Shown here: positions 1 through 26,117 of the stretch, one piece after another
Layout: each line of letters opens with the position of its first letter
Numbering within the stretch: the first letter of the stretch is position 1
Assembly: GCA_015060905.1 (NCBI GenBank)
Contig: SUXQ01000001.1
Coordinates: 221,256-285,255, forward strand
Origin: Bacteroidales bacterium
GTDB lineage: Bacteria > Bacteroidota > Bacteroidia > Bacteroidales > Bacteroidaceae
Direction: 5' to 3'
DNA length: 64,000 bases
Notes under the pieces: generated by a model
The model's input: only the letters and a program-made list of their open reading frames with translations
The model's database searches: none
Told to the model about the DNA's origin: nothing
Position numbers and translations under genes: made by a program

Positions 1-1
1 T

Positions 2-442
2 TATTTTGCTTTTGGTGAAAATATGAAAAGTATCTGTGAAGAGGCTTTTAGCGATTGCAATAATTTGACAATGCTTATTAGTAATGCAAAAACACCTCCA
101 GTTTGTGCTGCGCAGGCTTTGGATGATATAAATAAATGGAATTGTATTCTGTATGTGCCTTCCGAAAGCATGACAAGTTACCAATCTGCCAATCAATGGA
201 AAGATTTCTTCTTTATCAGTGAAATTACAACAGGTATAGAGGATGTCGAATCAACTTATGAAATAAATGTGTCGGATAATGGTGTTGTTTTAGAGGGATG
301 TGAGGGTAAATCTGTTACCATATACACCACCGCCGGTGCAGTTGTAGAGAAAATCGACAGCTACGCAGGCAAGGAGATTACTCTCGACAAGGGTGTTTAC
401 ATTGTTCGTGTAGGAAACAAGACAATGAAAATAAGGTTGTAA
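2..442 (+). CDS. BspA-like leucine-rich-repeat surface protein, C-terminal part (5' end outside window)
   Basis: The reading frame is open from the first bases of the window, so the gene starts upstream. What remains is one last LRR_5 repeat (ICEEAFSDCNNLTMLI), a short linker and a C-terminal beta-sandwich-like tail. The tail ends in GVYIVRVGNKTMKIRL, which resembles the type A C-terminal sorting domain of the type IX secretion system. BspA-like proteins are surface adhesins of Bacteroidota. This stretch is almost identical to the gene end at 16826-17267: one A/G difference, at 371 versus 17196, changes Lys to Glu. A Rho-independent terminator follows. The family call is firm. The secretion route is an inference from the tail alone. 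Confidence 0.85.
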   Translation, partial: YFAFGENMKSICEEAFSDCNNLTMLISNAKTPPVCAAQALDDINKWNCILYVPSESMTSYQSANQWKDFFFISEITTGIEDVESTYEINVSDNGVVLEGCEGKSVTIYTTAGAVVEKIDSYAGKEITLDKGVYIVRVGNKTMKIRL

Positions 443-463
443 GCCAACCTACATAGCCCCACA

Positions 464-504
464 AAATCCAGCCTACCCATGCAAAGGGTAAGCTGGATTT
501 TTTT
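464..504 (+). terminator. Rho-independent terminator of the BspA-like gene, copy A
   Basis: A 15-bp stem begins AAATCCAGCCTACCC and has one mismatch (A at 491). The 7-nt loop ATGCAAA (479-485) and a T run follow. Copy B has the reverse-complement loop. Confidence 0.85.
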
Positions 505-1164: not shown

Positions 1165-2574
1165 TTATGGACGGGCTTCTTTTAGTTGTCGGCTGATGTC
1201 TGTCATGCGTTCAGCTGTCAAAGGATAAAAGTGACAGGTAAGAATGGCAATGAGAGCTACGGTGGCGGGGATGAAGGACATCAGGTAGCGGAGACAGAGA
1301 AGGGCGGACTCGGGCTGGGTGATGAGGGCTTGGGCTGTCAACTGTTCATCGGTACGCGGTACGTAGCCACAGGCAGAGAGGAGCCATAGAACAGCAGCAC
1401 CGCCAATGGCACCACCAAACTTCTGCGCCATCGAACTGGAAGAGAAAATGAGGCCTGTTGAGGCTGTCTTGTAACGCAATTCGGCGTAGTCGCTGACGTC
1501 AGCATACATCGACCAGACAAGAGGCGACATCATACCCGTGAGGATGCTAATGAGGACTTGGAAAAGAAGCATGAGCCAGAAACCTGTGGGCGAAACAGGG
1601 ATGAAAAAGAAGGCGACACTCAACACCAAGAGGACGGCATTTACGGCCATGAACAGCGACTTCTTGCCAAGGCGACGAGCAAGGGGAACGGTACAAGCCA
1701 CGCCCACCATGTTCGAGACTTCGCCAACGCTAAGGAAAAGTCCCGCATAGAAGAGAATTGATAATTGATAATTGACAATTGATAATTTGAGAACCCTGTC
1801 AAAGCCGATAATGTCGGCAAAGTAATAGGCGACTGTGGCTCCTCGGACGGTACAAAAGAGATTAAAACAGAGGGCAGCAGCGATGAGTAGCCACCACGGA
1901 CGGTTGGAAAGGAGTGAACGAAAGTCTTTGCCTATGCTGACGGTGGAGACGGTTTTCAGCCGCTCACGTGTGAGGGCAAAAGTGAGCAGGAAGAGCACGA
2001 AGCATGCGGCAGCAATGACCATCATGGCGTATTGCCATGCGAGAGAGGTGGACCCACCTCCTGCCTTAAAGAAATTCACCAGCGGTTCCCATGCTGCCAA
2101 AGCGACAAATGAGCCACCATAGGCAAAGAACATACGGAAGGAGGAAAAGACGGTCTTCTCCTGCGAGTCGTCGGTCATCACTCCCAGCATAGCTCCGTAT
2201 GGCACATTGATGGCCGTGTAGATGGTCATCATGAGGATGTAGGTGACATAGGCATAGATGAGTTTGGCAACATACGACCAATCTGGTGTGGTGAACAGCA
2301 GGATGCCCGCGATGCTGAACAGTGGTGCCACCCAGAGCAGATAGGGCCGGTACTTCCCCCAGCGGGTCTGTGTGCGGTCTGCAATAATGCCCATCATGGG
2401 GTCGCTGACGGCATCCCAGATGCGGGTGACGAGTACCAACACGCCTGCATCTACAAGGCTCAGTCCAAAGACATTGGAGTAGAAGAAAGGCAGATAGTAA
2501 GAGAACACCTTCCAAAACATCGACGATGACATATCGCCGAAGCCGTAACCAATTTTTTCACTTATGGGTGCCAT
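1165..2574 (-). CDS. GPH-family sodium/sugar symporter, probably for mannobiose or mannosyl-oligosaccharides
   Basis: This 469-residue inner-membrane carrier has about 12 hydrophobic segments. The N-terminus ([16 protein letters not shown]) and the loop [16 protein letters not shown] are hallmarks of the glycoside-pentoside-hexuronide symporter family. It is the last gene of the mannan operon, and its start overlaps the GH130 gene by 17 nt. Next to an epimerase and a mannosylglucose phosphorylase, it matches the Bacteroides mannobiose pathway, in which a symporter brings the disaccharide into the cytoplasm. An oddity is a 7-nt tandem repeat at 1759-1786 that encodes about residues 264-272 (KLSIVNYQL). 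It looks like an in-frame insertion between two membrane segments and could change the frame by slippage. The substrate is inferred from context only. Confidence 0.85.
1759..1786. repeat. Heptamer tandem repeat (TGATAAT x4) inside the symporter gene
   Basis: There are four consecutive 7-nt units: TGATAAT, TGATAAT, TGACAAT, TGATAAT, with degenerate partial units on both sides. Seven is not a multiple of three, so gain or loss of one unit would shift the frame of the symporter gene. Confidence 0.85.
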
Positions 2575-3724
2575 GATTCTTGCGGATGAGTTGCTTGATA
2601 GTTTCTACGCTTGCTCTTGTCGTCAGTCCGTCCTCGGGCGTGTTCATGCAATAGTCAATGAGGCGGTCGAGGGAACTGACAGCCACATGGAGGCGGGTGT
2701 CGGCAGTGGCATAATAGATGAGGACGCGACCGTCATCGTCGAGGATCCAGCCATTGGAGAAGGCCACGTTCATCACATCGCCCACGTATTCCTCTCCCTC
2801 GGGTACCAAGAACCAGCCGCCAGGTTGGGCTATCACACGTGTGGGGTCATCGAGGGCCGTCATATACATATATAATACATAGCGCAGTCCGTCGGCAGTG
2901 CCGCGCACCCCATGAGCCAGATGCAGCCAGCCTTTCTGTGTCTTCAGCGGTGCCGGTCCTTCTCCATTCTTCACCTCCTGGATGGTGTGATAGTGCCGAG
3001 GATTGATGATGATTTCCTCCTTGACCTCTGCATGTGTGATGTCTTCCACCAGTGCCCAACCAATGCCTCCACCACTGCCGGTGTCTATGAATCCATCCTG
3101 GGGGCGGGTGTAGAAAGCATACTTGCCATCTACGAACTCAGGATGAAGCACAACATTGCGTTGCTGGCTACGGCTTTTGAGGTCAGGCAGACGTTCCCAG
3201 TCCTTGAGGTCTTTCGTGCGAGCAATGGCGGCAGTTGCTGTGGCGGCACTGAGATTGCCGGGCAGTGAGTCGTCGTGACGCTCGGCACAGAACACGCCGT
3301 ATATCCAACCGTCCTCATGCTCCGTCAGGCGCATATCATATATATTGGTGGCGGGGATGAGGTCTTCGGGCATCGTGATGGGTTCGTCCCAAAAGCGGAA
3401 GTTGTCGATGCCATTAGGACTCTCGGCCATAGCAAAAAAACTCTTGCGGTCTGCACCTTCTATACGACATACCAACAGATAGCGTCCTTCCAGCTTGATG
3501 GCACCGGCATTCAGCACGGCATTCATCATGATGCGCTGCATCAGATAGGGGTTGTCCTTTTCCGAGAAATCATAGCGCCATTCCAAAGGCGTATGCTCGG
3601 CTGTCAGTATGGGATGCTGATAGCGTTCGTAGATACCGTTTCCCCACTCCTTGGGTTCATTCTTCATCGCAAGCAACGCTTCGTGTCGTTCGAACAGATG
3701 CTTCTTTCGTAATTCGTAAGTCAT
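2558..3724 (-). CDS. GH130 4-O-beta-D-mannosyl-D-glucose phosphorylase
   Basis: This 388-residue cytoplasmic protein has no signal peptide. It carries the GH130 five-bladed propeller signatures, including [15 protein letters not shown] with the predicted general acid Asp130 (Asp131 in the Bacteroides fragilis enzyme). It phosphorolyses Man-beta-1,4-Glc, made by the operon's epimerase from mannobiose, to mannose 1-phosphate and glucose. Length and order of motifs fit the GH130_1 group that contains B. fragilis mannosylglucose phosphorylase. A mannooligosaccharide phosphorylase is the alternative, but the neighbouring epimerase argues for mannosylglucose. The 3' end overlaps the symporter start by 17 nt, which suggests coupled translation. 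Confidence 0.92.
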
Positions 3725-3743: not shown

Positions 3744-5927
3744 TCAGTTTTCAATAAAAAACACACGGCTGGCATATTCCTCTCGAAGGGGGACTTCAAG
3801 ACCAACTTCCATGAGAAAGCGACCAGTAAACCTTTTGCCTGAGAGCGAACAGGGTTTCTGGCCTACATGCACGTTTTTCTCTGTTAGGGTGTATGTTGCA
3901 TCGGGATTGAGTCCAGCTAATCGGATGCGAGGAAGCGGCTGGTCGTAGTAGTTGTCAATCTTATATACGAAAAAAACACCTTGGCGGCAAACATCGTCGA
4001 CATACATCAGCGAGGAAACGCCCTTGCGGTCGTATGGTGAGATGAGACGATAGAGATCGCCTGTCTGCACGACCTGCCGCAACTGTTTGTAGTCGGCCAT
4101 ACAGGTTGATGTCTGCTGACGCTCCTCGTCAGTCATATCCTTAGGCTGCAATTCAATGCCGAGACGCCCGGACATGGCAACATCGCAGCGGAACTTGATA
4201 GGGATGACCCTGCCGCCTGTGTTCCAATAGGGGCAATGATTGATGTGACACGCCATTGCATTGGCAGGGAAGAAGAGCGAAGTGCCCCATTGGATGAAGA
4301 CGCGCTGCAGGGCGTCGGTGTTGTCAGAAGTCCAGAACTCGTCGAAATAAGGCAGCAAGCCGTAGTTGGCGCGTCCACCGCCCGATGCACAATCCTGAAT
4401 CACGATGTCAGGGTATTTGTCACGGATGCGCTGCAGCGTCTTGAGCAGACCAAGGTGGTAATCGACGTAAAGGTTCTGCTGACGGTTCATGGGCAGATAG
4501 AGCGAGCCGAAGTTTTGGATGGAGGCATTGGCATCCCACTTGATATATGCTATCTCTGGATTTTGGGTGAGCAGGTCGTCAACAATCTTGAACACGAAGT
4601 CCTGTACCTCGGGATTAGTCATGTCGAGCACCAGCTGCGTGCCTCCTCGTCCCAGTTTCAGTTCCCGTCCTTTTGTCTGCAAAACCCATTCGGGATGACG
4701 CTCATAGAGTTCGCTTTTTGTGTTCACCATCTCCGGTTCTATCCAAATGCCGAACTTGATGCCCCGTTCACGGGCAGCCTTTGTCAATACGCCGAGTCCT
4801 CCCGGCAGCTTGTTCTTATCTACGACCCAATCGCCCAGACTGGAGGTGTCATCCTTACGTGGATACTTGTCGCCAAACCATCCGTCGTCCATTACGAAGA
4901 GTTCACCGCCGAACTTGCTGATATCGTCCATCATGGCAATCATGCGGGTCTCGTCGATGTCGAAATAGAGTCCTTCCCACGAATTCAGTAGGATGTCGCC
5001 TGTCTTCATCCCTCTGTGCAGCATTCCTTCAGTACGTGCCCAGCGGTGGAAGTTACGGCTGGCTCCGCTCAAGCCTTCATTTGAGAAGGTGAGGGCAAGA
5101 TGCGGCGTCTCGAACTTCTGTTTCGGGTCGAGGACGTATTCGCTGGATTGGGGGTCGATACCGGCATAGAAGTGGTGCTCCTTATGTGAGATGGTATTGA
5201 AGCGGAGTTCGAAGTTACCGCTCCAGCATAGGGCTGCACCTATGATGCGACCACTATTCTCCTGTGGCTGCCCGTCGAGGGAAATCATCACTTCGGGTGC
5301 ATCGAGATGAGCATTTCGCGTTCCGTCGGTATTGCGGATGGTTTTCACGCCGCCAGTCAACGGCTCCGACGTCGGTTCCGCCTCTGCCGCCCAATTGCCA
5401 TGCATGTGGGTTATCCATACGTTCCCCTGGCGCAGTACAAGATGTCCCGAATCGTAACGCTTCAGGGTGATGGCCTTCTTTTCTGCGTTCACTATTTCCG
5501 TCCACGTCTCGATGATGTCTACCCGGTCGTATGCCTTGTAGAACACCTTAACCGTGACAGGTTGCAATTTGTCTTGCATCGTGAAAATGTGAGTCTTTGA
5601 AGCAGACTCTGCCTTCACCTCATAATCCTCTACTTTCAACTCCAGATTCAAATCCCCGTCGGCATGAAGTACCTGCAGGGCTGGCAGCTGTACCATATCC
5701 ACCGTACCAAAGGCAGGCAAGGCAGACGAGTTGAGGTCGGCGCCAGCATCGCGCAATTCTTGTAAACTGGTAACACGCGGGCCATAGTAGGCCATGCGGA
5801 GGTCTTGCCCCTCTCGGGCGTGCAGAATAAGCATGGTGTTCGGAGTTTCTATGCTCACGTCGCCACTCCAAGCAGCGGCACTCAATGTTCCCATTAATGG
5901 GAGCAGAAGCAGAAATAACCTTTTCAT
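3744..5927 (-). CDS. GH36 alpha-galactosidase, secreted
   Basis: This 727-residue protein has an N-terminal signal peptide (MKRLFLLLLPLMGTLSAAAW) without a lipobox, so it is probably periplasmic. It has the GH36 order of domains: N-terminal beta-supersandwich (about 25-300), catalytic barrel with WIEPEMVN, IKWDAN (nucleophile Asp465) and CASGGGR...WTSDNTD (acid/base region 534-538), then a C-terminal beta domain. It would remove alpha-1,6-galactose side chains from galactomannan or galactoglucomannan fragments. It lies 12 nt after the GH59-GH26 gene and 19 nt before the GH130 gene, well inside the operon. The family is certain. The exact substrate is inferred. Confidence 0.93.
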   Translation of the reverse strand: MKRLFLLLLPLMGTLSAAAWSGDVSIETPNTMLILHAREGQDLRMAYYGPRVTSLQELRDAGADLNSSALPAFGTVDMVQLPALQVLHADGDLNLELKVEDYEVKAESASKTHIFTMQDKLQPVTVKVFYKAYDRVDIIETWTEIVNAEKKAITLKRYDSGHLVLRQGNVWITHMHGNWAAEAEPTSEPLTGGVKTIRNTDGTRNAHLDAPEVMISLDGQPQENSGRIIGAALCWSGNFELRFNTISHKEHHFYAGIDPQSSEYVLDPKQKFETPHLALTFSNEGLSGASRNFHRWARTEGMLHRGMKTGDILLNSWEGLYFDIDETRMIAMMDDISKFGGELFVMDDGWFGDKYPRKDDTSSLGDWVVDKNKLPGGLGVLTKAARERGIKFGIWIEPEMVNTKSELYERHPEWVLQTKGRELKLGRGGTQLVLDMTNPEVQDFVFKIVDDLLTQNPEIAYIKWDANASIQNFGSLYLPMNRQQNLYVDYHLGLLKTLQRIRDKYPDIVIQDCASGGGRANYGLLPYFDEFWTSDNTDALQRVFIQWGTSLFFPANAMACHINHCPYWNTGGRVIPIKFRCDVAMSGRLGIELQPKDMTDEERQQTSTCMADYKQLRQVVQTGDLYRLISPYDRKGVSSLMYVDDVCRQGVFFVYKIDNYYDQPLPRIRLAGLNPDATYTLTEKNVHVGQKPCSLSGKRFTGRFLMEVGLEVPLREEYASRVFFIEN

Positions 5928-5939: not shown

Positions 5940-8900
5940 TTATTTTATTGTTTCAATGTCTTTAAGCATGAGAATCCTCTTGTCCTCGACCATCTTGCGG
6001 AAGTCGGGAGCATCCTTGGTCGATGGTGCAGGGGCAAAGTACTGATGGTGGTCGGCGTTGCGCCAGACAAGGAAGTAGCAGAGGGGATACTTCTCGATTT
6101 GCGGTTTCAACACGCGTGTCCACCAAGTTGGGTCGGGAAGATTCTGATAACCACATTCCGTGAGGGCGACAAGGCGTCCTCTCTTCTTGGCAAACTCGCA
6201 GAGCATGGTGAGGTCTTTGCCCAGCGTACTGATGAAGGCATTCTCATCATTGGATTGCTGATAAGCATCAAGGCCGATGATGTCCACGCGATCATCGCCT
6301 GGATAGGAATCCATGTCATCGTCTTTCATACCGTAATTAGGACTCCAGCTCCATACGATGTTCGTCAAGCCGTCGGCCAGCAGTTTATCCTGCAGGCAGT
6401 TCCACAGTGCCTTGTATTCTTGGGCGGTACAAAGGCCCTTGCCCCACCAGAACCAACCGCCGCTGTTCTCATGCCAGGGACGGAAGATAAAAGGAAAGGG
6501 ATGGCCTTGTTCGTCTTTCAACGACTGGAGGAAAGTGGAGAGGTGCTGCATCCACGTTTGGAACTTTTGATGCTGGCTGCCGCCTGGCAGGATACTGCGA
6601 ACTGTGTTGGCATCCTTGTTGTCCCATGCCGTGCCTCCTGTCAGCGGGTTGCGCGGATGCCAGGAGATAGTAGCGATGCCACCGCGACGCACATGTGCCA
6701 GCAACTCTTCTCGGATTCGAGCGAAGGGTACGCTGTCCAGACTCTTGACATCGCCCATCTCGATGCCACCAAGTTCAAAGCCCATCACGGCGGGGTAGTC
6801 GCCGCAAGTCGCCAATACGTCGGAATGTCCTCCAGAAGCAGAGCGGTCGTTCCAACCGAGACCATAGAAAGGATCGTCCTGATGTCCGAACATGATACCA
6901 CGGGTGTTGAGGCGTTGCAGACGTTGGAGCAGCATTTCACGACCTATATTGTGCGAGCTCACCGGGTAAAGCGGCTGTATCGCAGAAACTTTGGTTTGCG
7001 TGGCCTTTGTGCGGCCGATGGGCACTATCTTCAAGTTATCAAAATATGGAGTAGAGACGCGGCGCTCTTTCAAAAGAGCTATCAAGCCTGCCATGCCCTT
7101 GCCGTAGTGATCCGATGTGGCCTTAACCACTTCGACTCCATCGACGTAGCCCAAGATGCGGTCGCCCTCGAAACGAAGCCTGAGGTTGTGCCATTGCAGA
7201 GCCGTTATGCCGCTTACTTCTTTCTCGTCCAGCGTGTATTCGCCGCCAACCTCTACGTCCTTTCGGGCGAGGATGATGGCTTGCTGTTCCTTGTCGCCAA
7301 TGAGTTCTTTCTTGTCGAGCTTTCCGCAGGTGAGGATGAGCGTTACCTTCCCTTTATCGTCCATCTTCAGATAGTAACCCTTGGCCCAGATGCCGTAACC
7401 GGAACCCACGTCACAGAGGCGACCCATTACGCCGGCCTCGTCGCCGGGATTCAGATATACGTCGGCACTGACTTCGTAGTCCTGCCAGTCGGCATCGCCC
7501 AGGATGGTGTAGTGGTGCCATTCGGGTGCCCAGCTGAGAGTGTGGGAACCGACGATTTGGCGGATGCATTTGGCGGATGAGTTTGCAAGTGAATGAGTTG
7601 AGGGCTGCTTCACCAGTTCGAAGCATCCTATCAGGTCTGCCAGATAGTGAGGCAGATAGCCCCACTCGGAGGGATTTTTGTACTGCTCGAAGTCGTCCTC
7701 GTAGGGGATGGGGAAGGGTTGAGAGGCTGGGATATCGGCAAATGTCCCTTTCTGCTGCCCCGTCACCGTGGAGAGAGAATAGACGGCATCGGGCTTCAAG
7801 GTGATGGAGAAACTACAACCCTTGGGAGTGATGTCCTTCAAGCGCACGAATTGTTGCAGCGAGTCGCTATACCATACGCAGAGTTTGCCTGTGGCAAGTC
7901 CGTCGGTCACCTCTATCTTAATCTTCTGTGCTTTCTTCGCCCCCTTCGTCTCGGCAATGATGCTGTAGTCGCCCGTCTGCGGGTCGCGCATGGTCACCAT
8001 GGAACCTCCACCAGGCAGATTTAGACAACCATCGTCGATGTATCGCCAGCCCACACGAGTAAACTGGCCGTAGTGCGCGTAGCCCCACAGCGCCTCGCGG
8101 ACGTAATAGTGCCCGCTCCACGGCTCCTGAGCAAGGAGCATCGGTGGTTCCTTGCTATAAGGCTCCAACGGATATGTAGCACCGATGTCATACCAGTTGA
8201 CAACCTTGGTTGCTCCACTGATGATGTAGTTCATATTGAAGCATTTCACGATGGAGATGAGGCAATCGAAACCAGGGAGATACACGTGGTCTTCGCTGTT
8301 CCAAATGGGCTTGCCCATGTCTTCTGCCATCTTGCGTTGCTCTGGGGTAAGTTGTATTTCGCTGAACGTGTGGGCACAAACGGCGTCGAGCGCATCCCTA
8401 AGTTCCGAGTCCTCCTGCATTCGCTTGAGAAAGTCCATCTTCTGACCGCCCCAGTTACCGAAGCCATGTAGCTTTACGTCGCGAAAACCACGTTCGTTCA
8501 TGGCTCTGCGCAGATGCTTGGCGAAGTCGGCGTTCCATCCCTTCTCGTTGTGACAGCCTAAAGCATCCAGTTCCAGACCGTGCACCTCACGCAGTCCCTG
8601 AAGCCAATCCACATAGTAATCCACCATATTGTCTGACCAATAATTGCCCACCCAGGCAGGGGCACTCCACGAAGTAGCGTCAAGGGTAAGAGCCGGATTA
8701 CGCCGTTTCACCTCCTGCATCACCCACCACATATAGCCACGCAGGTAGTTGTGGTCGCCCTGATTGTGGCTATGGGAGGGCATCGAACCCTGCGTACTGT
8801 TGCCGTCACCCGGCACTTCGACAAGGATCGTGCTGACGCTGGCTCCAAACATAGGCTTATAGACCATGTCCATGATCTGTGAGCGCTGAGGCTCAGGATA

Positions 8901-9059
8901 ATCCTTCAATAATACAGAAGTGGCACCACCACCATTCACAGCTCCAATGCCGTCGAATTGCTTGCCTTTGGCGTTGGCGCTCAACTTAATGGTCTGAGCC
9001 TTAGCGCCACCAAATAAAAGGCTCAATATTGCTCCAATTAGTAGATATCTTCTTGTCAT
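5940..9059 (-). CDS. GH59 beta-galactosidase fused to GH26 beta-mannanase, secreted
   Basis: This 1039-residue protein has a signal peptide (residues 1-21, cleavage near AKA-Q). Residues about 30-440 carry the GH59 (galactocerebrosidase-type) barrel: FDGIGAVNGGGATS near the start, LGCHNEKGW with predicted acid/base Glu172, PIWNSEDH with nucleophile Glu256, and LLAQEPWSGHYYV. These align well with mammalian GALC (Glu182 and Glu258 in mouse). Residues about 450-680 form the lectin-like (LamG) domain that ends GH59 proteins. Residues about 690-1035 are a complete GH26 mannanase: RPWHENSGGWFWWG with acid/base Glu864 and ALTECGY with nucleophile Glu968. The start overlaps the upstream GH26 stop by 4 nt. 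An exo-beta-galactosidase tied to an endo-mannanase suggests a mannan with beta-Gal-capped side chains. I know of no characterised enzyme with this pairing. Confidence 0.9.
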   Translation of the reverse strand: MTRRYLLIGAILSLLFGGAKAQTIKLSANAKGKQFDGIGAVNGGGATSVLLKDYPEPQRSQIMDMVYKPMFGASVSTILVEVPGDGNSTQGSMPSHSHNQGDHNYLRGYMWWVMQEVKRRNPALTLDATSWSAPAWVGNYWSDNMVDYYVDWLQGLREVHGLELDALGCHNEKGWNADFAKHLRRAMNERGFRDVKLHGFGNWGGQKMDFLKRMQEDSELRDALDAVCAHTFSEIQLTPEQRKMAEDMGKPIWNSEDHVYLPGFDCLISIVKCFNMNYIISGATKVVNWYDIGATYPLEPYSKEPPMLLAQEPWSGHYYVREALWGYAHYGQFTRVGWRYIDDGCLNLPGGGSMVTMRDPQTGDYSIIAETKGAKKAQKIKIEVTDGLATGKLCVWYSDSLQQFVRLKDITPKGCSFSITLKPDAVYSLSTVTGQQKGTFADIPASQPFPIPYEDDFEQYKNPSEWGYLPHYLADLIGCFELVKQPSTHSLANSSAKCIRQIVGSHTLSWAPEWHHYTILGDADWQDYEVSADVYLNPGDEAGVMGRLCDVGSGYGIWAKGYYLKMDDKGKVTLILTCGKLDKKELIGDKEQQAIILARKDVEVGGEYTLDEKEVSGITALQWHNLRLRFEGDRILGYVDGVEVVKATSDHYGKGMAGLIALLKERRVSTPYFDNLKIVPIGRTKATQTKVSAIQPLYPVSSHNIGREMLLQRLQRLNTRGIMFGHQDDPFYGLGWNDRSASGGHSDVLATCGDYPAVMGFELGGIEMGDVKSLDSVPFARIREELLAHVRRGGIATISWHPRNPLTGGTAWDNKDANTVRSILPGGSQHQKFQTWMQHLSTFLQSLKDEQGHPFPFIFRPWHENSGGWFWWGKGLCTAQEYKALWNCLQDKLLADGLTNIVWSWSPNYGMKDDDMDSYPGDDRVDIIGLDAYQQSNDENAFISTLGKDLTMLCEFAKKRGRLVALTECGYQNLPDPTWWTRVLKPQIEKYPLCYFLVWRNADHHQYFAPAPSTKDAPDFRKMVEDKRILMLKDIETIK

Positions 9060-10237
9060 TTTCTTATATATTTCTTTCCATTCTTAATAAAGATTCCACG
9101 TCGGCCCTCCGTCCATGGGCGTCCTAAAAGGTCATAGCTGCCGAATGGCGCAAATGTTTGCTCAGCCCGAACAGTTTTTATACTTGTTTGCAATTTCTGT
9201 TTGAAGTCTTCACGCGAGAGGACATAGTCGTTGGAGAAGGCCTCTGTCCACCATGCTGCATTGCAGTTGCTGTGGTCGGTACTTTGGAAGTCATTGCTAT
9301 TAGGATTGTTGGTTCGTCCGTAGTCGTACCACGGCATGAAAAAGAGCCATTTAGCTCCTGCTCTCCATTGAGCGCTGATTTTAGGAACATTGCCGCACTC
9401 GGTGAGTGCCACCAGCTTGTCGGGAGAGGAATCCTTAAGAAATTTATAACAGGTGCGATAAATATTCGAAGCACTGTTGTTGTTATAAACATCAATGCTG
9501 ACAATATCTACATACTCGTCGCCCGGATACCACTTGTAGCCTTCACTGTAAGGCTTGTTCCATGCCGCTGCCTGCGTCCACACCCAAATAAGGTTGTTGA
9601 GTCCGGCTTCTTGAAAACGCTGATACATTACGCGCCACAATTCATTGCACGCCTCAGCATCGCGCCCCCACCAGAACCATTGGCCGCCTGCCTCATGCAG
9701 CGGACGCCACAACACAGGAATCTTGCGCTGTTTGAGCAGTTTCAGGTATGAGATAATCGTGTCGATGTCCTTCATCATCAACTTATATTCGTCGGACTCA
9801 GGTTCAAATATCTTTCGGACGTCAAAAGTTGTCCTGTCATCTTCATTACCCCAATAGAAAGAATACTCCCCATTCTTGTTTGCAGGTACGTTCCAGTGCC
9901 ACATGATGGCCACAACACCTCCCTGGCGATGCCAGTTATAGACCTCTGTGACGTTAGTGTAGTCAATCCACTCGCCTTTCTTTGAGAAAGGATGGTGGAT
10001 GTAGTCGAAACAATTCAGTGCCGGCCATTTGCCCGTGTGCTGATGCACCCACTTTGCCTCATTGATATTCCAGTTGACGTTGGCCATCGTGCCGGAGAGC
10101 GTCTTCACGCCTTCAATGTCTTTCAGACACTGCAGTAACGCCTCTGCCTCTGCCGATAGCTGGCTGGAATCCTGTGCTGAAATGCCACCCACAAAGAACA
10201 GCATCAGCAGTATAAGCATAAATCTTTGGTATCTCAT
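9056..10237 (-). CDS. GH26 endo-beta-1,4-mannanase or mannobiohydrolase, secreted
   Basis: This 393-residue protein has a signal peptide ending in GGISA-Q. The GH26 catalytic barrel covers about residues 30-350, with WRPLHEAGGQWFWWG (acid/base Glu182) and VALTECGN (nucleophile Glu280), plus the Trp-rich subsite motifs WHWNVP and YPGDEYVD. The C-terminal 30 residues (SYDLLGRPW...GIFIKNGKKYIRK) look like the end of a Bacteroidota C-terminal sorting domain. GH26 enzymes of this operon type release mannobiose from beta-1,4-mannan, which feeds the epimerase-phosphorylase route. It follows the GH26-CE7 gene by 13 nt and overlaps the GH59-GH26 start by 4 nt. Endo versus exo action cannot be told from the sequence. 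Confidence 0.92.
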   Translation of the reverse strand: MRYQRFMLILLMLFFVGGISAQDSSQLSAEAEALLQCLKDIEGVKTLSGTMANVNWNINEAKWVHQHTGKWPALNCFDYIHHPFSKKGEWIDYTNVTEVYNWHRQGGVVAIMWHWNVPANKNGEYSFYWGNEDDRTTFDVRKIFEPESDEYKLMMKDIDTIISYLKLLKQRKIPVLWRPLHEAGGQWFWWGRDAEACNELWRVMYQRFQEAGLNNLIWVWTQAAAWNKPYSEGYKWYPGDEYVDIVSIDVYNNNSASNIYRTCYKFLKDSSPDKLVALTECGNVPKISAQWRAGAKWLFFMPWYDYGRTNNPNSNDFQSTDHSNCNAAWWTEAFSNDYVLSREDFKQKLQTSIKTVRAEQTFAPFGSYDLLGRPWTEGRRGIFIKNGKKYIRK

Positions 10238-10250: not shown

Positions 10251-12524
10251 TTATTTCAGATAATCATTGATGAACGCTTCACGGGGACGAAGGTAGTGCT
10301 CTTCCCATTGGGGACGGAGGATTCCCGAGGGCCAAGCATGGGTACGGTAGGGCACGCAGTTGATAGTCTTCTTGCCCTTTGCGTTGTTGAGAGATGACCA
10401 TACGGCCGAAGGTGGGCAAGTGGTATCAATAAGGCCTATCTCGCAGTAGATTTCTGCCTGCGAATGCCGAATGAGTTGTGCACCATCGAAATAAGGCAGC
10501 GTAGCATCGAGCTGTGCCATGGTGAGGTTAGGGTGGTTCTCGATAGGCTGGGGCCACCCGCTGCGGCGTCCCTTGCGCGCACCGCCCAGATCCTGCATTG
10601 CAGGCACGTTGAGCACCACACAGCTAACGCGCGAGTCGAGTCCAGCCGCCGCCACAGCCTGTCCGCCACCCTGGCTTTCACCAATAACCAGAATGCGGCG
10701 GCCGTCCCATTCGGGCTGATGTGTCATATATTCTATGGCACGCAATAGGCGCAAGTACATACCGCGGAAGTAATAGGTCTCTCGGTCGGCAGCATTGTGT
10801 TCATAGTAATTGTGTAAGAGCCCATCTTCGAGCATTTTATAATAATCGTCCGACTGGCCGTTCATCATCCCATGTGCGTTGATGTCAAGGCTGAGAGCGC
10901 CATTGCCTAAAGCTGCATTGTGTACACACTCCCATTCTGAACAGCGACACCAATTGCCGCTGACGCCTGCAGCACGACAAAGAATGATGATAGGCAGGGA
11001 TTTCTTTTTTGCGTTGACAGGTTTAGCCACATATGCTCGTACAGGTGCAGGGCCGAGGCAGTTGATTTCCAAATCCTGACAGGTGTATTTGCCCTTATAC
11101 TGCTCCGGCACATCCAATGTCATCGTCTTTACCTGCATGGGCAATGCCTTGAGTTGTTTTTTTAAGTTGTTCCAATAGGACATTAAATCTGCGGGTTCTT
11201 CGTAGCCAGAACGAAAGCCTTCGGGGTCCACCACATAGCCGATTGCTTCGGGCTTGCCTGTGCGTTCCTGCACCTGCACGCTGACGGCGCAAGTGCTGTC
11301 CAGTGCCTGCTCCAGAACGATAAATTCTGCTGTATCAGGCAGCAAGCGGAACTCGCGGCATACCTTATTATTATATGACACACGCACGAGGATGGAGTCC
11401 ATAGGCACGGGATCTGCGTGGCAGGTAACTACAGCCAGCTCACCTTTCTCGTAGATTCCGCTTTCCTTGTTGATGCCGAGGCGGTAGGTTCCTGCGCGAT
11501 TGACCTCATCTCGGGTCAGTATTAGTCTCTCGTTGAGGAATTGTCGCCAGAAGGCATCATCGTTTTGCTGGCTGAAGACGAAGGGGGTAGTCCATGGTGC
11601 CACAAAGAGCCAACGGGCATTGTCCTTCTCCATTGCCTCGGCACTTGGAACGCAATCGCATTCCGACAAAGCGAGCATCTTTGAGGGATATTTGTTGCGC
11701 AAGAGATCGAACTGCTGCTTGAACGAACCATGTTGCGAGGGCGCATGGTACTGGTCGCGTGCCACGATATCAACATATTCGTCACCAGGATACCAGTCGT
11801 CATCATCCAGTTCCGATGTCCAGATATAGATAAGGTTATGTACACCATGTTCCATCAGATAACGTTGGGTGTAAAGGTAAAGCTGTTTGAAAGCCTCAGG
11901 CCCATCGTTACCCCACCAGAACCAGGCCTTGCCGCCTCGGTTGATATTGCCTGCTGCTTCATGGAAGGGTCGCCAAAGGATGGGTATTCCCTGTCTCTGG
12001 TAATGAAGAAAGTAGCTGACGATGGTGTCCAGGTTTTCATTGATGATGCGGTGTTCAGGAGTGCCGGCCTGAACAGCTCTACGTGGTGAGAAGAGCGTAC
12101 CAGGACGACCTTGGGAACCCGTGGGGGAGTAGAAGGCAAAGCCCTCCTTAGCTGACAGGTCGGCAGCTATGGGTACACTCCAGTGCCAGATAAATCCCAC
12201 GATACCACCAGCATCGTGCCAAGCCTTGGCCGTAGGCCCCATATAATTGAGGTTACGCTGGCGAAAGTGTTGGAAGTCGAAGATATTGATGGCGGGATAC
12301 TTGCCTGTACGCTCATAGATGCCATCAGCATCCATTGTGTTATAGTCCCATCGTGCCTGACAGCCCGAGAGTACCTGCTTGCCCCACACTTTATCACGCA
12401 AATAACGATAAAGTTGCCGCGTTGGCCCTGTAGCCTCGCTGTCAACGGGTAACTTGGGGATCTGGTCTTGTGCGATACAGGAGAACGCAACAAAAAGAAA
12501 GAGAGGAAGGATGAGGCGCTTCAT
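10251..12524 (-). CDS. GH26 beta-mannanase fused to CE7-like acetyl esterase, secreted
   Basis: This is a 757-residue protein. I place the start at ATG 12524, because it opens with a signal peptide (MKRLILPLFLFVAFSCIAQ) and lies one base after the CE1 stop. The frame stays open upstream inside the CE1 gene, but that extension has no meaning. Residues about 25-340 are GH26, with RPFHEA (acid/base Glu189) and LALSECD (nucleophile Glu288). Residues about 345-425 form a linker beta domain. Residues about 435-757 form an alpha/beta-hydrolase of the CE7/AXE1 type, with GESQGG (Ser617), GLIDTTCPP (Asp700) and YRTHAWP (His729) as the triad. A mannanase joined to a deacetylase fits acetylated glucomannan or galactoglucomannan. 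The CE7 assignment rests on motif spacing and is slightly less sure than GH26. Confidence 0.88.
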   Translation of the reverse strand: MKRLILPLFLFVAFSCIAQDQIPKLPVDSEATGPTRQLYRYLRDKVWGKQVLSGCQARWDYNTMDADGIYERTGKYPAINIFDFQHFRQRNLNYMGPTAKAWHDAGGIVGFIWHWSVPIAADLSAKEGFAFYSPTGSQGRPGTLFSPRRAVQAGTPEHRIINENLDTIVSYFLHYQRQGIPILWRPFHEAAGNINRGGKAWFWWGNDGPEAFKQLYLYTQRYLMEHGVHNLIYIWTSELDDDDWYPGDEYVDIVARDQYHAPSQHGSFKQQFDLLRNKYPSKMLALSECDCVPSAEAMEKDNARWLFVAPWTTPFVFSQQNDDAFWRQFLNERLILTRDEVNRAGTYRLGINKESGIYEKGELAVVTCHADPVPMDSILVRVSYNNKVCREFRLLPDTAEFIVLEQALDSTCAVSVQVQERTGKPEAIGYVVDPEGFRSGYEEPADLMSYWNNLKKQLKALPMQVKTMTLDVPEQYKGKYTCQDLEINCLGPAPVRAYVAKPVNAKKKSLPIIILCRAAGVSGNWCRCSEWECVHNAALGNGALSLDINAHGMMNGQSDDYYKMLEDGLLHNYYEHNAADRETYYFRGMYLRLLRAIEYMTHQPEWDGRRILVIGESQGGGQAVAAAGLDSRVSCVVLNVPAMQDLGGARKGRRSGWPQPIENHPNLTMAQLDATLPYFDGAQLIRHSQAEIYCEIGLIDTTCPPSAVWSSLNNAKGKKTINCVPYRTHAWPSGILRPQWEEHYLRPREAFINDYLK

Positions 12525-12525
12525 G

Positions 12526-13602
12526 TCATTTAAACAGTCTAGGTGCAAAGTCATGTAGGTCGTAGTGCCATACGTGCCAGCTGTGACCACCAGGTGTGTC
12601 GCTGTATTCGTATTTGATGCCAGCCTCATCGAAGCATTTAAGCATCTGCTGGCAGTTCTCGTAGGCAATGTCGCTTTTCCCTCCCATGGTAAAACGGAGA
12701 ATTTTGGCTGTCTTGTTGAGTGTGGAAGCAATTTCGCAGAGCCTTTGCGTTTTGGCTTGGCGGTCGGCATCGTTTGAACGGAACCAACCGGAACTCATCA
12801 CGTTAATGTAGCCAAAGAGGTCGGGATGCGCCATGAAGCAATTAAGAGTCTCAAGTCCTCCCATAGAGAGTCCGGCCAAAGCGGTGTTTTTGGAGCCTGT
12901 TTTTATGCGATACTGCTCGGCTACACGTGGCATAATATCTACTACAAGTTCGTCAACAAACTTCTCTGTATCCATCCCGCCATGAGGCATTACCACAATC
13001 ATCGGGGCTATCTTGCCCTCTGCATAGAGATTGTCAAGAATGTTGTCAGCACAACCCACAGAGGTCCAAGAAGCATCATTATCGCCACCGCCATGAATGA
13101 GGTAAAGAACGGGCAGTGACTTCTTAGCCGCTTTTCCTGCAGGCATCCATACATGCATACTGCGAGTGGTGCCGGTGGTGGAGGATTTATATGATAATTG
13201 TGACACGGGACCATGAGGTACGTCGCGCTGTGCCCAAAAGATGTCCTCGCCGTTCGTAATCATGGCTACAGGTGTAATTTCAGAATATAATCGGTAGCGG
13301 GGATCAATGACCCGTACGCCATCCACAACAAAATGATAGCGGTAAGCATCTGTAGCCACGTGTGGAACTACTGCTGTCCAAATGCCGTCGGCATCCTTGG
13401 TGAACAGAGCATTGAGTCCTGAGAAGTCGCCGCCAAGTGTTACTTTCTCAGCCTTGGGAGCATAGATGCGGAAGGTGGTAGAACCGTCAGCGTTGGTAAC
13501 AATGGATGTAAGCGTGTCGGCAGGCGTAACATTTCTGCGCCATTGTGCATTTACCATAAGTGTGGCTGTCACAAAAAGGAGTAGGAGAATCTGTCTTTTC
13601 AT
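12526..13602 (-). CDS. CE1-type esterase with N-terminal CBM48-like domain, secreted
   Basis: This 358-residue protein starts at ATG 13602, chosen because the signal peptide MKRQILLLLFVTATLMVNAQ begins there. A longer frame from 13641 adds 13 residues without a plausible signal. Residues about 25-125 form an early-set/CBM48-like beta-sandwich (TTFRIYAPKAEKVTLGGDF). Residues about 140-358 are the esterase D/CE1 alpha/beta-hydrolase, with LIHGGGDND, GLSMGGLETL (nucleophile Ser) and GGHSWHVWH (His). Relatives are feruloyl or acetyl esterases on plant hemicellulose. In this operon, removal of acetyl groups from mannan is the most likely role. The gene ends 1 nt before the GH26-CE7 start. Confidence 0.87.
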   Translation of the reverse strand: MKRQILLLLFVTATLMVNAQWRRNVTPADTLTSIVTNADGSTTFRIYAPKAEKVTLGGDFSGLNALFTKDADGIWTAVVPHVATDAYRYHFVVDGVRVIDPRYRLYSEITPVAMITNGEDIFWAQRDVPHGPVSQLSYKSSTTGTTRSMHVWMPAGKAAKKSLPVLYLIHGGGDNDASWTSVGCADNILDNLYAEGKIAPMIVVMPHGGMDTEKFVDELVVDIMPRVAEQYRIKTGSKNTALAGLSMGGLETLNCFMAHPDLFGYINVMSSGWFRSNDADRQAKTQRLCEIASTLNKTAKILRFTMGGKSDIAYENCQQMLKCFDEAGIKYEYSDTPGGHSWHVWHYDLHDFAPRLFK

Positions 13603-13638
13603 TGTCGTATATGTTTTAGTATTAATAAAAATACGCTG

Positions 13639-13646
13639 CAAAGATA
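13639..13646 (-). promoter_or_regulatory. Possible -7 element between the AraC gene and the CE1 gene
   Basis: The minus strand reads TATCTTTG, a perfect TAnnTTTG, 36 nt before the esterase start in a 99-nt gap that is the largest within the operon. No clear -33 box is seen. It may be an internal promoter under control of the AraC protein. Confidence 0.4.
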
Positions 13647-13701
13647 CGTGCTATTGTTGAGATTGACTGACTCTTTCTTAACCATTGATGGCACAGCCCT
13701 T

Positions 13702-14601
13702 CTATATGATGATTTTTTTCTTGTTGTAATTCTCGCGGAACTCTGTAGGGGTACATCCTTTATGTTTGCGGAACAGACGATTGAAATTAGAAAGCGTTTT
13801 GAAGCCGGAGTCATAACATATTTCAGCAGCCGTCATTGTGGTATCTATCAGCATTCGTGAAGCAAAGCCCAGGCGAATCTCGATGATATAGTCCGACAAC
13901 GTGCGGCCTGTACGCTGATGGAAGAAGCGGGAAAAGCCTACAGGTGTCATCCCTACCAACTCTGCAATCTGTTCAAGCCGCACTTCTTCGCGGAAATGAC
14001 TCGCTATGTACTGCTGTACTTTATTGACGCGACGGTTCTCACTGCTTGCCTTGATGCGTGCAAACGAGGAGCTGGACAGGGTGCGGCTGTCGTCGGCCAG
14101 CGACAGGTCGTAAAGCAGTTCAAGGAAGCTCAGCACCGCATGGAAGCCGTGCCCGTGACATGTCAATTCGTCCAATCTCCTATATATCCTCATAATGGTG
14201 AGCCCCGAAAAAGCGAGGCCCAGGCGGGCACGTTCCAGCATCTGACGGATGGAATGGAACTGACTCTTATTGAGCAGACTCTCGGGCAGTATGTCGGAGG
14301 TGAACTGTATGGTAATCTCTCTGATGTCCTTACTACGGCATTCCCCCTGTTCCCATACGTGTTCCAGATTGGGACTAGCAATGAGAACCAGATCATACTC
14401 CCCAATCGTCTCACAGTTATCCCCCACCGTTCGACGCACTCCCGCAGCGCCTGCGATGAAATTAAGCTCGAATTCGGGATGGTTGTGTATGGGGAAGTCG
14501 AACGATGACTTGTGGCGGTCGGCCAAGTAGAAGCAGTCGCTGTCGGACAGCGGTGTGATTTCTCTCATCACAGTTGCTGTAGTGGAGTCTTGTTGAGTCA
14601 T
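13702..14601 (-). CDS. AraC-family transcriptional regulator of the mannan operon
   Basis: This 299-residue protein has no membrane segment. The N-terminal cupin-like sensor (about 20-150) contains the HNHPEFELNFI motif typical of AraC sugar sensors. The C-terminal double helix-turn-helix (about 195-295) contains LEQIAELVGMTPVGFSRFF and AAEICYDSGFKTLSNFNRLF. It lies 22 nt after the epimerase gene and 99 nt before the first esterase gene, inside the operon. A role as activator responding to a manno-oligosaccharide is inferred from position. It is not a hybrid two-component system, which is the more common regulator of large Bacteroides glycan loci. Confidence 0.88.
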   Translation of the reverse strand: MTQQDSTTATVMREITPLSDSDCFYLADRHKSSFDFPIHNHPEFELNFIAGAAGVRRTVGDNCETIGEYDLVLIASPNLEHVWEQGECRSKDIREITIQFTSDILPESLLNKSQFHSIRQMLERARLGLAFSGLTIMRIYRRLDELTCHGHGFHAVLSFLELLYDLSLADDSRTLSSSSFARIKASSENRRVNKVQQYIASHFREEVRLEQIAELVGMTPVGFSRFFHQRTGRTLSDYIIEIRLGFASRMLIDTTMTAAEICYDSGFKTLSNFNRLFRKHKGCTPTEFRENYNKKKIII

Positions 14602-14623
14602 AACGATTATGTGTTTTTATGTA

Positions 14624-15880
14624 TCAGAGCATTGTTCCTATGCGCTCTATGAGTTCCAGGCACATGCGGCCATTGTGGTATGGGCATTTCCAGAAGCCGG
14701 CATGGTCATCGTCGAAGTTCACACTGCCATCCTCGTGAATGCTCCAGTACCATTCGCCATGCTCGTAGTCGATGAGTCGGTCCTTGATGTAGCGCCACAA
14801 TCGTAATGCCTTATCCAATGCCTTCTCATCGCCAAAATGCTGATAGAGATTGAAGAACCCCACGACGGCCTCTGCCTGCACCCACCAGTGTCGGTTGCGG
14901 TCGAAGTACGAGCCGTCGGGCTCTCCTTCATAAATCATGGAGCCGTCGGGCTGCAGCCCCTTCTCGCTCGCTAATGCCACCTCTCTTACCATAGGCTCTA
15001 CCTTATTTAATAATGCTTTGTCTCCAAGCACAAGCGTAGCCTCGTGCAAGAGCCATGAACATTCTATGTCGTGGCCGTAGCTTTCGGTTGTGCTGCGGCG
15101 CGTCCAATCCATATCGAAGAAGAGGTCGAGGTGATGTGTCTTGGGGTTAAGAATGTGATTGATGAAAAAGGAAACCAAACGCCCGACTGCCGCTGAGACC
15201 TTTCTGGCATGCTCGCTTTCCGGGTCAGTTTCTTGTAGCAGACGAAGCAAGTTGGTGTATGGTTCAATGATATGCAAATGCGTGTTCTGGCTCTTCGGAT
15301 AGTTCTCGTCCTTGGCGGAGAGACGCATGTCCGCGATGGGTTGCCAGTCGTGCGTATAGGCTTCGATATAGCCCCCGTAGTCGTCGTCCCAGGCGTGACG
15401 CTCAATGATGTCGAAGAGATGGACGGCCATCTGCAAAGCCTCCTCGTCACCTGTCGCTCGGACGTATTCCGAAAAGCCGTAAAGCATGAAGCCCTGAGCG
15501 TAAAACTGCTTCTTGGTGTCAAGCGGCTGTCCGTCTGCTGTGACGCTCCAAAACGTACCGCCATGCTCCCTGTCCATGAAATTTGCCAGGATATAATCCT
15601 TAGTCAACCGGGCCGCCTCAAGACAAGCATCGTCATGAAGCAGACGGTAGGCTGCACTGAAGGTCCAAAGCAAGCGGGCATAGAGGATGGCACCGCGTGG
15701 GGCATCCTCTTCTATCAGGCCTTTTCCCGTCATCCGCCCATACCAGCCGCCCCGTTTTGTGTCAAGCATATTGCTGAGCCAAAACGGCAGGATGTTTTGT
15801 GTAAGACATTCGTGAACTTCACGGCATAGAGTGCGCAATAATATCTCATTTGAAAGAAAAAGGTGTCTCTTTGCAGGCAT
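14624..15880 (-). CDS. Mannobiose 2-epimerase (AGE/cellobiose 2-epimerase family)
   Basis: This 418-residue cytoplasmic protein has the (alpha/alpha)6-barrel signatures of the N-acylglucosamine/cellobiose 2-epimerase family. They include TESYGHDIECSWLL with predicted catalytic His270, HWWVQAEAVVGF, and KCPYHNGRMC with His402; these match the catalytic histidines of cellobiose 2-epimerase. It converts Man-beta-1,4-Man to Man-beta-1,4-Glc for the GH130 enzyme. It is the first gene of the operon. The start follows an AT-rich region, and no other ATG in frame is plausible upstream. Mannobiose rather than cellobiose as substrate is inferred from the mannanase-rich operon. Confidence 0.92.
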   Translation of the reverse strand: MPAKRHLFLSNEILLRTLCREVHECLTQNILPFWLSNMLDTKRGGWYGRMTGKGLIEEDAPRGAILYARLLWTFSAAYRLLHDDACLEAARLTKDYILANFMDREHGGTFWSVTADGQPLDTKKQFYAQGFMLYGFSEYVRATGDEEALQMAVHLFDIIERHAWDDDYGGYIEAYTHDWQPIADMRLSAKDENYPKSQNTHLHIIEPYTNLLRLLQETDPESEHARKVSAAVGRLVSFFINHILNPKTHHLDLFFDMDWTRRSTTESYGHDIECSWLLHEATLVLGDKALLNKVEPMVREVALASEKGLQPDGSMIYEGEPDGSYFDRNRHWWVQAEAVVGFFNLYQHFGDEKALDKALRLWRYIKDRLIDYEHGEWYWSIHEDGSVNFDDDHAGFWKCPYHNGRMCLELIERIGTML

Positions 15881-16203: not shown

Positions 16204-16533
16204 CTAACAACAAGTTGCAAATACGCTGAATGCAGAGGCCTTACAAGTGTAAATATTCCCAACAGTGTTACTTTGTTGGGTGATAATTGTTTTAATAGTT
16301 GCTCTTCGCTTGAGAATGCGGTAATAGGTGATGGTGTAAAGGAAATAAATAACTATACATTTAATAACTGCTTTTCGCTGACCGATGTAAAAATAGGAAA
16401 AAGTGTTACATCTGTGGGTGAATATGCTTTTAATAATTGCGCCAAACTACTTTCAATTAAAATTCCTCAAGCAACAAAGGCAATAAAAAATTATGCTTTC
16501 GATGGATGCAATGGACTAAAAAACTTATTGTAG
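16204..16533 (+). pseudogene. BspA-like LRR gene remnant, 5'-truncated and frameshifted
   Basis: The frame is open from 16204 and encodes LRR_5 repeats (GLTSVNIPNSVT, FNSCSSLENAVIGDGV, FNNCAKLLSIKIP). It has no ATG start and no signal peptide, since a stop lies at 16201. It ends at a stop at 16531-16533. The LRR protein continues in the next frame at 16506-17267. Adding one A to the A run at 16517-16522 would rejoin the parts as ...GLKKLIVEDRT. So this is a decayed or broken gene, unless the A run is a sequencing error or is used for slippage. Confidence 0.7.
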
Positions 16534-26109: not shown

Positions 26110-26117
26110 TTGGAATA

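Follow-up and report, generated by a model that had tools for sequence, protein, structure and literature searches.

The operon and its bimodular enzyme

The window (i.e., the whole 64,000-nucleotide stretch of Bacteroidales DNA analyzed here) carries a nine-gene operon on the minus strand. By decreasing coordinate, it encodes a cellobiose 2-epimerase (14624..15880), an AraC-type regulator recognized by domain search (13702..14601), a CE1-type esterase with a CBM48-like N-terminal domain (12526..13641, likely starting at the ATG at 13602), a GH26-CE7 (AXE1) fusion (10251..12524; the listed open reading frame runs to 12770, with the likely start being the ATG at 12524, just past the CE1 stop), a second GH26 mannanase of 393 aa (9056..10237), the GH59-GH26 enzyme of interest (5940..9059), a GH36 alpha-galactosidase (3744..5927), a GH130 enzyme closest to 4-O-beta-mannosyl-glucose phosphorylase (2558..3724; 3was, 670 bits) and a GPH/MFS sugar transporter (1165..2574). 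Signal peptides were recognized by eye in the second GH26 mannanase and the GH36 enzyme; none was seen in the GH130 enzyme. Direct repeats of 1.1 kb flank the operon on the plus strand, the right copy (16224..17327) being 99.4% identical to the left, which begins ~600 bases before window position 1 and occupies 1..503 inside the window. No tRNA was found within the window, and therefore nothing points to tRNA-gene insertion. A tblastn search gave no plasmid record with one place covering 80% of the query. The idea of a mosaic operon, judged by base composition, was dropped, as the CE1 gene alone stands out.

This gene content—GH26, GH130 of the mannosylglucose type, 2-epimerase, transporter, alpha-galactosidase and esterases—is the set that marks Bacteroidales beta-mannan loci. 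The mannan loci described in parts of the reports on B. ovatus, B. cellulosilyticus and Segatella copri (PMC5217682, PMC13276840, PMC12704710) have in common with it GH26, GH130, a 2-epimerase/isomerase, a transporter, a CE7 esterase and GH36, whether these lie within the locus or are induced from other sites, and GH130, the epimerase and a periplasmic GH26 also fit the route tested in S. copri (PMC12704710). However, the main texts of PMC13276840 and PMC12704710 contain no mention of GH59, nor does the abstract of PMC5217682 name it among the B. ovatus enzymes. The window operon also differs in lacking a SusC/SusD pair, which the PUL label requires and which was absent from the nine operon genes and ten further window genes scanned. 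A GH3 beta-glucosidase (for Glc-Man units) is likewise absent from the window operon; the BLAST map places GH3 in six other loci (L038-L040, L042, L058, L060).

GH59 is best known through one animal lysosomal enzyme, galactocerebrosidase (GALC), the beta-galactosidase of Krabbe disease. In the window, a GH59 module is joined to GH26 in a single ATG-initiated reading frame of 1039 aa, a fusion reported by the first-pass annotation and borne out by Pfam, PDB sequence matches and an AlphaFold2 model (mean pLDDT 75.8, pTM 0.61). Pfam assigns residues 35-332 to the GH59 catalytic domain (E 2.6e-83), 477-547 to GH59_C (E 2.8e-10) and 710-1003 to GH26 (E 1.8e-38), while the PDB search matched residues 28-545 to mouse GALC (281 bits) and 709-1034 to BoMan26A (4zxo, 334 bits). 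A signal peptide (residues 1-21, 8997..9059) was recognized by eye from a hydrophobic stretch followed by AKA/Q, with no lipobox, and the protein appears to be secreted and is probably periplasmic. The GH59 module (residues 22-685, 7005..8996) aligns in the model with mouse GALC residues 25-668 and is thus predicted to include the lectin-like domain alongside the TIM barrel and beta-sandwich of the three-domain GALC fold. A linker (residues 686-702, 6954..7004), placed from the ends of the structure matches and low pLDDT at 692-704, leads to the GH26 module (residues 703-1039, 5943..6953), which aligns with BoMan26A in the model and has the fold and both catalytic glutamates of the BoMan26A/CjMan26C type.

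The catalytic residues are complete in both halves, at exactly the positions first proposed: Glu172 (acid/base) and Glu256 (nucleophile), aligned to GALC E182 and E258, and Glu864 (acid/base) and Glu968 (nucleophile), on the WHE and TE motifs of GH26. The galactose pocket of GALC is also largely retained, with G44, T89, W131, N171 and W289 corresponding to G48, T93, W135, N181 and W291 (numbering mapped via the PDB sequence alignment and checked against passages of PMC4445328). Across an alignment of 67 GH59 rows, eight of them second copies of a contig, T93, W135, N181, E182 and E258 are conserved throughout the rows with a letter at the position (65/67), the G48 equivalent lies among the invariant columns, and W291 is kept in 66 rows, the remaining row being a gap. 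Passages of PMC4445328 trace the galactose specificity of GALC to W291 and describe the lectin-domain residue W524, which is W510 here and in the invariant list, as shaping the pocket. S261 and R380, given in the same source among the residues binding the 3-, 4- and 6-OH of galactose, are V259 and K381 in the window protein and vary in the alignment (V 56/65, I 5/65, S 1/65; K 36/65, R 6/65, another residue 23/65). These are contacts of the animal enzyme and are not known to define the family, yet because they are mostly replaced, sugar recognition may differ from that of GALC. The window protein further differs from mouse and human GALC in being bacterial, secreted, fused to a mannanase and without a lipid context. 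Judged from its sequence, the GH59 module is a putative beta-galactosidase.

The first-pass annotation described the other half as an endo-mannanase. GH26 stands, but "endo" calls for amendment, the module being more like a periplasmic mannobiohydrolase than an ordinary endo-mannanase. Residues 801-809 (HPRNPLTGG) are similar in sequence type to the loop that closes the cleft beyond subsite -2 in BoMan26A and CjMan26C, but the model has pLDDT <50 at 804-813. BoMan26A (4ZXO, Bacteroides ovatus) is periplasmic, releases mannobiose and was proposed to work after degalactosylation; enzymes of its type are sensitive to side chains, and galactoglucomannan is not hydrolyzed by BoMan26A itself (PMC5217682, in part). 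The window module differs from BoMan26A and CjMan26C in sitting fused behind GH59, and its release of mannobiose is predicted.

Recurrence, reshuffling and gene neighborhoods

Besides the window, GH59 and GH26 occur in one frame at 25 loci, four of which are second copies of a contig, leaving 21 distinct contigs (of which L043 and L046 are truncated where their contigs end, and L070 has an in-frame TAG stop inside its GH26 half). Against seven orthologues, dN/dS was 0.03 to 0.22 in 20 of 21 module comparisons, with dS saturated in the remaining one, and the catalytic part of GH59 gave 0.03-0.09. The further contigs and low dN/dS reject chance or an assembly artefact as the origin of the fusion, and decay of one half of the window protein is rejected since all four glutamates are present.

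The GH26 module is joined to GH59 in 22 loci, window included, and related GH26 modules are found behind other partners, namely GH27 (L060, L067 and L122 by Pfam; L048 and L063 by BLAST) and CE7 (L120). In these related Bacteroidales an alpha-galactosidase (67-69% identity for the GH26 modules of L060, L067 and L122) or an acetylesterase (58%) takes the place of GH59. Neither fused set forms one clade—the GH26 modules carrying GH59 (p-AU 1.5e-8) and the fused GH59 modules (p-AU 3.7e-40) both depart from it—and we therefore infer that the modules have been reshuffled. A single origin followed by plain inheritance is rejected by both trees, in which gain and loss are indistinguishable. The branch placing L041 among GH27-linked modules has a support of 94/91 and is not starred in the GH26 tree. 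That tree left out pieces <200 residues, including both L070 pieces, and the GH59 tree left out eight second contig copies, four loci whose state is in doubt (L049, L050, L056, L058), two that are very distant (L064, L119) and two with <350 matched residues (L062, L063); an alternative GH59 tree keeping the doubtful and distant loci gave seven changes. By these comparisons, the GH59-GH26 fusion is one among several shuffled forms.

Strong GH59 genes were found in 32 of 399 genomes and BoMan26A-type GH26 in 88, with most such GH26 loci being without GH59. Of the 32, 18 have GH26 no more than 10 kb from GH59 (0.31 expected), as do 12 of 26 (0.24 expected) when the six fused genomes are removed; these 18 related genomes fall in four of the eight GH59-holding genera, 11 in one genus. 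GH27 lies within 10 kb in 12 of the 32 (at most 0.65 expected; one of the 12, L069, a fragment), GH36 or GH27 is near GH59 in 16 (one a fragment), and 21 have GH26 and/or GH27/GH36 within 10 kb, leaving 11 GH59 genes with neither. Some GH59 loci adjoin xylan-type genes (GH115, GH98, GH43) or GH127, GH115 doing so in L102 and L113. No GH2, GH35 or GH42 substitute was found in 10 proteins scanned, nine from mannan loci without nearby GH59, a sample too small to conclude from.

Branched-mannan processing and its alternatives

The role proposed for GH59 in mannan breakdown, specifically of beta-galactoglucomannan (beta-GGM), is upheld in one part, the association with mannanases and alpha-galactosidases, which extends beyond the window gene; the other part needs narrowing, as, with GH115, GH98, GH43 and GH127 among the neighbors, the family as a whole is unlikely to act on beta-GGM alone. 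That GH59 trims mannan side chains is, in our judgment, a likely explanation, grounded in the fold, the catalytic and galactose-binding residues, the operon, its recurrence, the mannanase and alpha-galactosidase association and the exchange of partners, and favored by GH27 and CE7, the partners that take the place of GH59 elsewhere, being side-group removers. That beta-GGM in particular is the substrate we hold to be somewhat more probable than its contrary, with activity, linkage, order of steps and location all predicted. Against this reading stand the 11 GH59 genes lacking both GH26 and an alpha-galactosidase within 10 kb, the relatedness of the genomes with GH26 nearby, the replaced S261 and R380, the failure of BoMan26A to hydrolyze galactoglucomannan, the missing GH3 in the window operon and the many BoMan26A-type loci without GH59, as does the grass-rich diet of grazing ruminants. 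beta-GGM is likely specific to eudicots (PMC10735049, in part).

Under the beta-GGM model, the GH59 module would act as a retaining exo-beta-galactosidase whose GALC-like pocket holds one terminal beta-D-galactose and is undemanding about the rest, taking off the beta-1,2-galactose that caps alpha-1,6-galactose side chains. With the alpha-galactose exposed, the neighboring GH36 would strip it, and acetyl groups would be taken off by the CE7 and CE1 esterases. The cleared backbone would then be cut into disaccharides by the GH26 module, a candidate mannobiohydrolase hindered by side chains, for uptake and phosphorolysis via the GPH transporter, the cellobiose 2-epimerase and the GH130 phosphorylase. 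The order put forward at first (beta-galactose, alpha-galactose, backbone) fits beta-GGM chemistry and the side-chain sensitivity of BoMan26A-type enzymes (PMC5217682, in part). The reaction proposed here, removal of terminal beta-1,2-galactose, is shared with enzymes of another family, namely the Aspergillus niger GH35 beta-galactosidase used on beta-GGM as a laboratory reagent (PMC9614514) and a B. xylanisolvens GH35 beta-1,2-galactosidase in a cluster with a GH144 beta-1,2-glucanase homologue (PMC11739564).

GH59 might instead trim another terminal residue of mannan or its companions, such as beta-galactose on another sugar or alpha-L-arabinopyranose, which has the shape of beta-galactose minus C6. 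The frequent replacement of S261 and R380 (for their role, passages of PMC4445328) would suit this, as would close relatives beside GH115, GH98, GH43 and GH127, where arabinose-containing substrates are expected; but the specificity tryptophan is kept in all rows save the one gap, and alpha-galactosidases near half of the GH59 genes better suit a beta-Gal-alpha-Gal branch, so that we regard such a residue as unlikely, if worth weighing. Xyloglucan carries beta-galactose on alpha-xylose, and were GH59 to remove its beta-1,2-galactose, the link to the mannanase would reflect joint consumption of the two hemicelluloses. beta-GGM has been called related to xyloglucan (PMC9614514, in part), and GH5_4-type glucanases (in L043 by PDB search, in others by BLAST) or GH31 (L043, L106) accompany GH59 in some loci. 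Yet Pfam found no GH5, GH31 or GH95 in the nine-gene window operon, and GH31 (BLAST, one query) occurs in those two of 66 mapped loci, versus GH36/GH27 in 16 of 32 genomes; xyloglucan is thus an unlikely target.

Leaf galactolipids are abundant in rumen contents, and GALC itself acts on galactolipids, so GH59 could hydrolyze MGDG (or DGDG with an alpha-galactosidase), its mannanase link being incidental. GH59 does occur with GH27 without a mannanase in three loci (L103, L112 and L069, the last with the GH27 fragment), and a defined +1 subsite is absent in GH59 (PMC6637243, in part). We nevertheless consider this very improbable given the repeated fusion or operon sharing with mannanases, acetylesterases and mannoside phosphorylase, and given that Pfam hits in the window operon are carbohydrate families, one regulator and one transporter. 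Least probable is a non-cleaving GH59 part that serves the mannanase as a galactose-binding module: in its favor are the lectin-like domain and the precedent of an inactive GH26 in the mannan locus of S. copri (PMC12704710, in part), but every row with a letter at the positions concerned retains both glutamates and most of the galactose pocket, the catalytic part has a low dN/dS, and stand-alone GH59 genes sit in the same kind of operon.

Implications for the GH59 family

Disaccharide branches of beta-GGM were described around 1997-2001, in kiwifruit and cultured tobacco cells, and in 2022 they were recognized as widespread in eudicots (PMC9614514, in part). In the main text of a 2023 review of enzymes for complex mannans (PMC10492685), beta-galactosidase does not occur, and neither a bacterial enzyme set for beta-GGM caps nor a characterized bacterial GH59 member appears among the literature matches listed (titles and abstract openings). 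A bolder reading, which we offer tentatively and at less than even confidence, is that this is the first dedicated bacterial system for eudicot beta-GGM and that the GALC family, as found in gut Bacteroidales, takes beta-galactosyl caps off the side chains of hemicelluloses in general and is shuffled as a module. If so, one open-ended GH59 pocket would clear the cap blocking alpha-galactosidase on mannan (GH36/GH27 neighbors) and, in other loci such as L102 and L113, the cap blocking alpha-glucuronidase on xylan (GH115 neighbors); GH59 would be shuffled because one exo-enzyme serves several polymers, and here it would be joined to a mannobiohydrolase in the slot filled elsewhere by GH27 or CE7. 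If GH59 does remove beta-GGM caps, plant scientists would gain a specific reagent, animal GALC would have a relative that acts on a polysaccharide, and the GH59 family would gain a part in plant fiber digestion. The gene neighborhoods suggest that this gut-bacterial GH59-GH26 pair strips and cuts branched plant mannans, which would be a new role for GH59.

A mannan utilisation operon and its probable origin

The operon runs on one strand, in order of transcription, from a cellobiose 2-epimerase (14624-15880) through AraC, a CE1-type esterase, GH26-CE7, GH26, the GH59-GH26 fusion (5940-9059), GH36 and GH130 to a GPH transporter (1165-2574). The first-pass annotation had placed a GH36 in one operon with the fusion, and it is indeed the gene transcribed directly after it, on the same strand. 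Nearest relatives of this GH36 are alpha-galactosidases and those of the epimerase are cellobiose 2-epimerases, while the GH130 best matches the 4-O-beta-mannosyl-glucose phosphorylase 3was (670 bits). In Segatella copri, comparable steps by a periplasmic GH26A, an epimerase and a GH130 have been tested (PMC12704710), so GH26, epimerase and GH130 are common to both routes. Three of the four GH26 domains in this genome lie inside the operon. As no SusC/SusD pair occurs among the operon genes, we refer to a mannan utilisation operon rather than a PUL; a GH3 for Glc-Man units is likewise absent from the operon and present in several relatives' loci. Third-position G+C is 0.50 in the CE1 gene (12526-13602) and 0.57–0.64 in the other operon genes.

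A 1.1 kb direct repeat brackets the operon (window 1-503, which is the part of the left copy inside the window, and 16224-17327; 4399-5503 in stretch L131), the copies being 99.4% identical over 1106 aligned bases. It encodes a 253-aa protein that has a T9SS-type tail, and a terminator-like hairpin lies at its end. The operon has 51.9% G+C vs. 46.4% in the rest of the window, and the GH59 surveys gave no same-genus match besides the window's own genome. The operon was probably gained recently. Alternatively, the assembly may have been joined chimerically at the repeat, which would change the host and leave the fusion as it is. A Fic/DOC family protein is encoded just past the right repeat (17488-18375), and a second carbohydrate cluster (24166-34871) comprises GH97, a protein of 715 aa that matches no Pfam family, an apiosidase-like enzyme and a GH27 carrying an Ig-like domain.

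Module exchange and recurrence of GH59 near mannanases

In two stretches from relatives' genomes (L060 and L067; also L048 and L063 by BLAST), GH59 stands as a separate gene within the mannan operon, and the counterpart GH26 module forms the C-terminal part of a fusion with a GH27 alpha-galactosidase. GH27-GH26 also occurs in L122, where the fetched stretch carries no GH59, and CE7-GH26 in L120; in L123 the GH26 partner has no Pfam match. This kind of GH26 thus has as its N-terminal partner an acetylesterase, an alpha-galactosidase or a putative beta-galactosidase (GH59). Those partners whose function is known strip side groups from galactoglucomannan, and this is the strongest argument for GH59 doing likewise. 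A single clade was rejected both for the GH59-bearing GH26 modules (p-AU 1.5e-8; L041, although GH59-bearing, is placed among the GH27-linked modules of the GH26 tree) and for the fused GH59 modules (6 changes, p-AU 3.7e-40); since neither set forms one clade, the GH59 and GH26 modules have been reshuffled. Separately, in L058 (5079-6452) a GH26 domain precedes an AXE1 (CE7) domain of which just the second half is present, the reverse of the order in L120. In the mannan operon of L048, a protein of 1093 aa that matches no Pfam family is encoded between GH59 and CE7 (12085-15366).

A species-genome scan with the whole fusion protein returned 33 loci, by title 32 from Bacteroidales, Bacteroidaceae or Prevotellaceae and one from Pelomonas, with a ruminant forestomach (buffalo, yak, sheep, goat, roe deer) named for 15. 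GH59 and this GH26 type share one frame in 25 of 66 mapped loci (scan loci plus genome fetches), of which four are second copies of a contig, leaving 21 distinct fusion contigs besides the window. One relative (L070, 3533-6667) has an in-frame TAG in its GH26 half; GH36 comes next, then GH130, which runs to the end of the contig.

Because the whole-protein query is biased towards the fusion, the scan was repeated with the GH59 domain alone in 399 genomes of the family. Strong matches (E up to 1e-40) occurred in 32, in six of them as the fusion. GH26 lay within 10 kb of GH59 in 18/32 genomes vs. 0.31 expected from GH26 positions in the same genomes (12/26 vs. 0.24 without the six fused genomes), and GH27 in 12/32 vs. 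at most 0.65, one of these (L069) being a 135-residue fragment. By neighbours, 13 genomes have GH26 plus an alpha-galactosidase, five GH26 alone, three an alpha-galactosidase alone and 11 neither. These counts are not independent events, given kinship among the genomes: 11 of the 18 with GH26 near GH59 belong to one genus. GH59 was found in eight of 30 genera, with the mannan link in four.

GH59 in other settings

Evidence against the proposed mannan role comes from the 11/32 GH59 genes that lie away from both mannanase and alpha-galactosidase. GH59 adjoins a GH115 alpha-glucuronidase in L102 (5957-13659, with GH98) and L113 (10714-14459, with GH43), which suggests a xylan-type context; a GH127 beta-L-arabinofuranosidase directly follows it in two genomes of one genus (L068, 9408-13789; L101, 9281-13573), and GH43 is near it in L065. 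The remaining loci showed no clear carbohydrate enzyme among the subset of neighbours scanned. Outside the family, GH59 lies beside three GH43 in Pelomonas (L061), beside rhamnosidases and sulfatases in L064, and near a SusC/SusD pair in L119. GH59 and GH27 share a strand in L103 (6877-10674), L069 (5187-8078) and L112 (8375-16857), adjacent in the first two and ~5 kb apart in the third, with no mannanase on the stretches fetched.

Other points also weigh against it. Most genomes with this GH26 type have no GH59. BoMan26A, the Bacteroides ovatus mannobiohydrolase, did not cut galactoglucomannan (PMC5217682), and the alternating backbone would yield Glc-Man units, for which the operon has no GH3. 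As beta-galactoglucomannan is likely eudicot-specific (PMC10735049), legumes, forbs and browse would need to be its source.

Active site, proposed order of steps and novelty

In animal galactocerebrosidase (GALC), PMC4445328 assigns contacts with the 3-, 4- and 6-OH to W135, G48, T93, S261 and R380, the C2 side to N181 and E258, the preference for galactose over glucose to W291, and shaping of the pocket to W524 of the lectin domain. All of these are kept in the aligned bacterial GH59 set (W510 being the counterpart of W524 by sequence alignment) except S261 and R380. The GALC site is open and lacks a defined +1 subsite (PMC6637243); a similar site here would suit a trimming enzyme tolerant of the next sugar.

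Bacterial systems for beta-galactoglucomannan or galactoglucomannan did not appear in the titles and abstract openings searched. By the same measure, papers on GH59 together with GH26, mannan, polysaccharide utilization or Prevotella beta-galactosidase were reviews, genome surveys and work on other families, as were the matches listed for GH59 galactosidase characterisation; in two of these papers GH59 occurred in a reference title and in a correlation list.

According to a proposal in PMC5217682, BoMan26A works in the periplasm once galactose has been removed, and for this reason we propose that GH59, as a putative beta-galactosidase of predicted linkage, would act first, GH36 next and GH26 last. 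The enzyme families are already known; the GH59-GH26 architecture and its proposed role do not appear in the literature searched.
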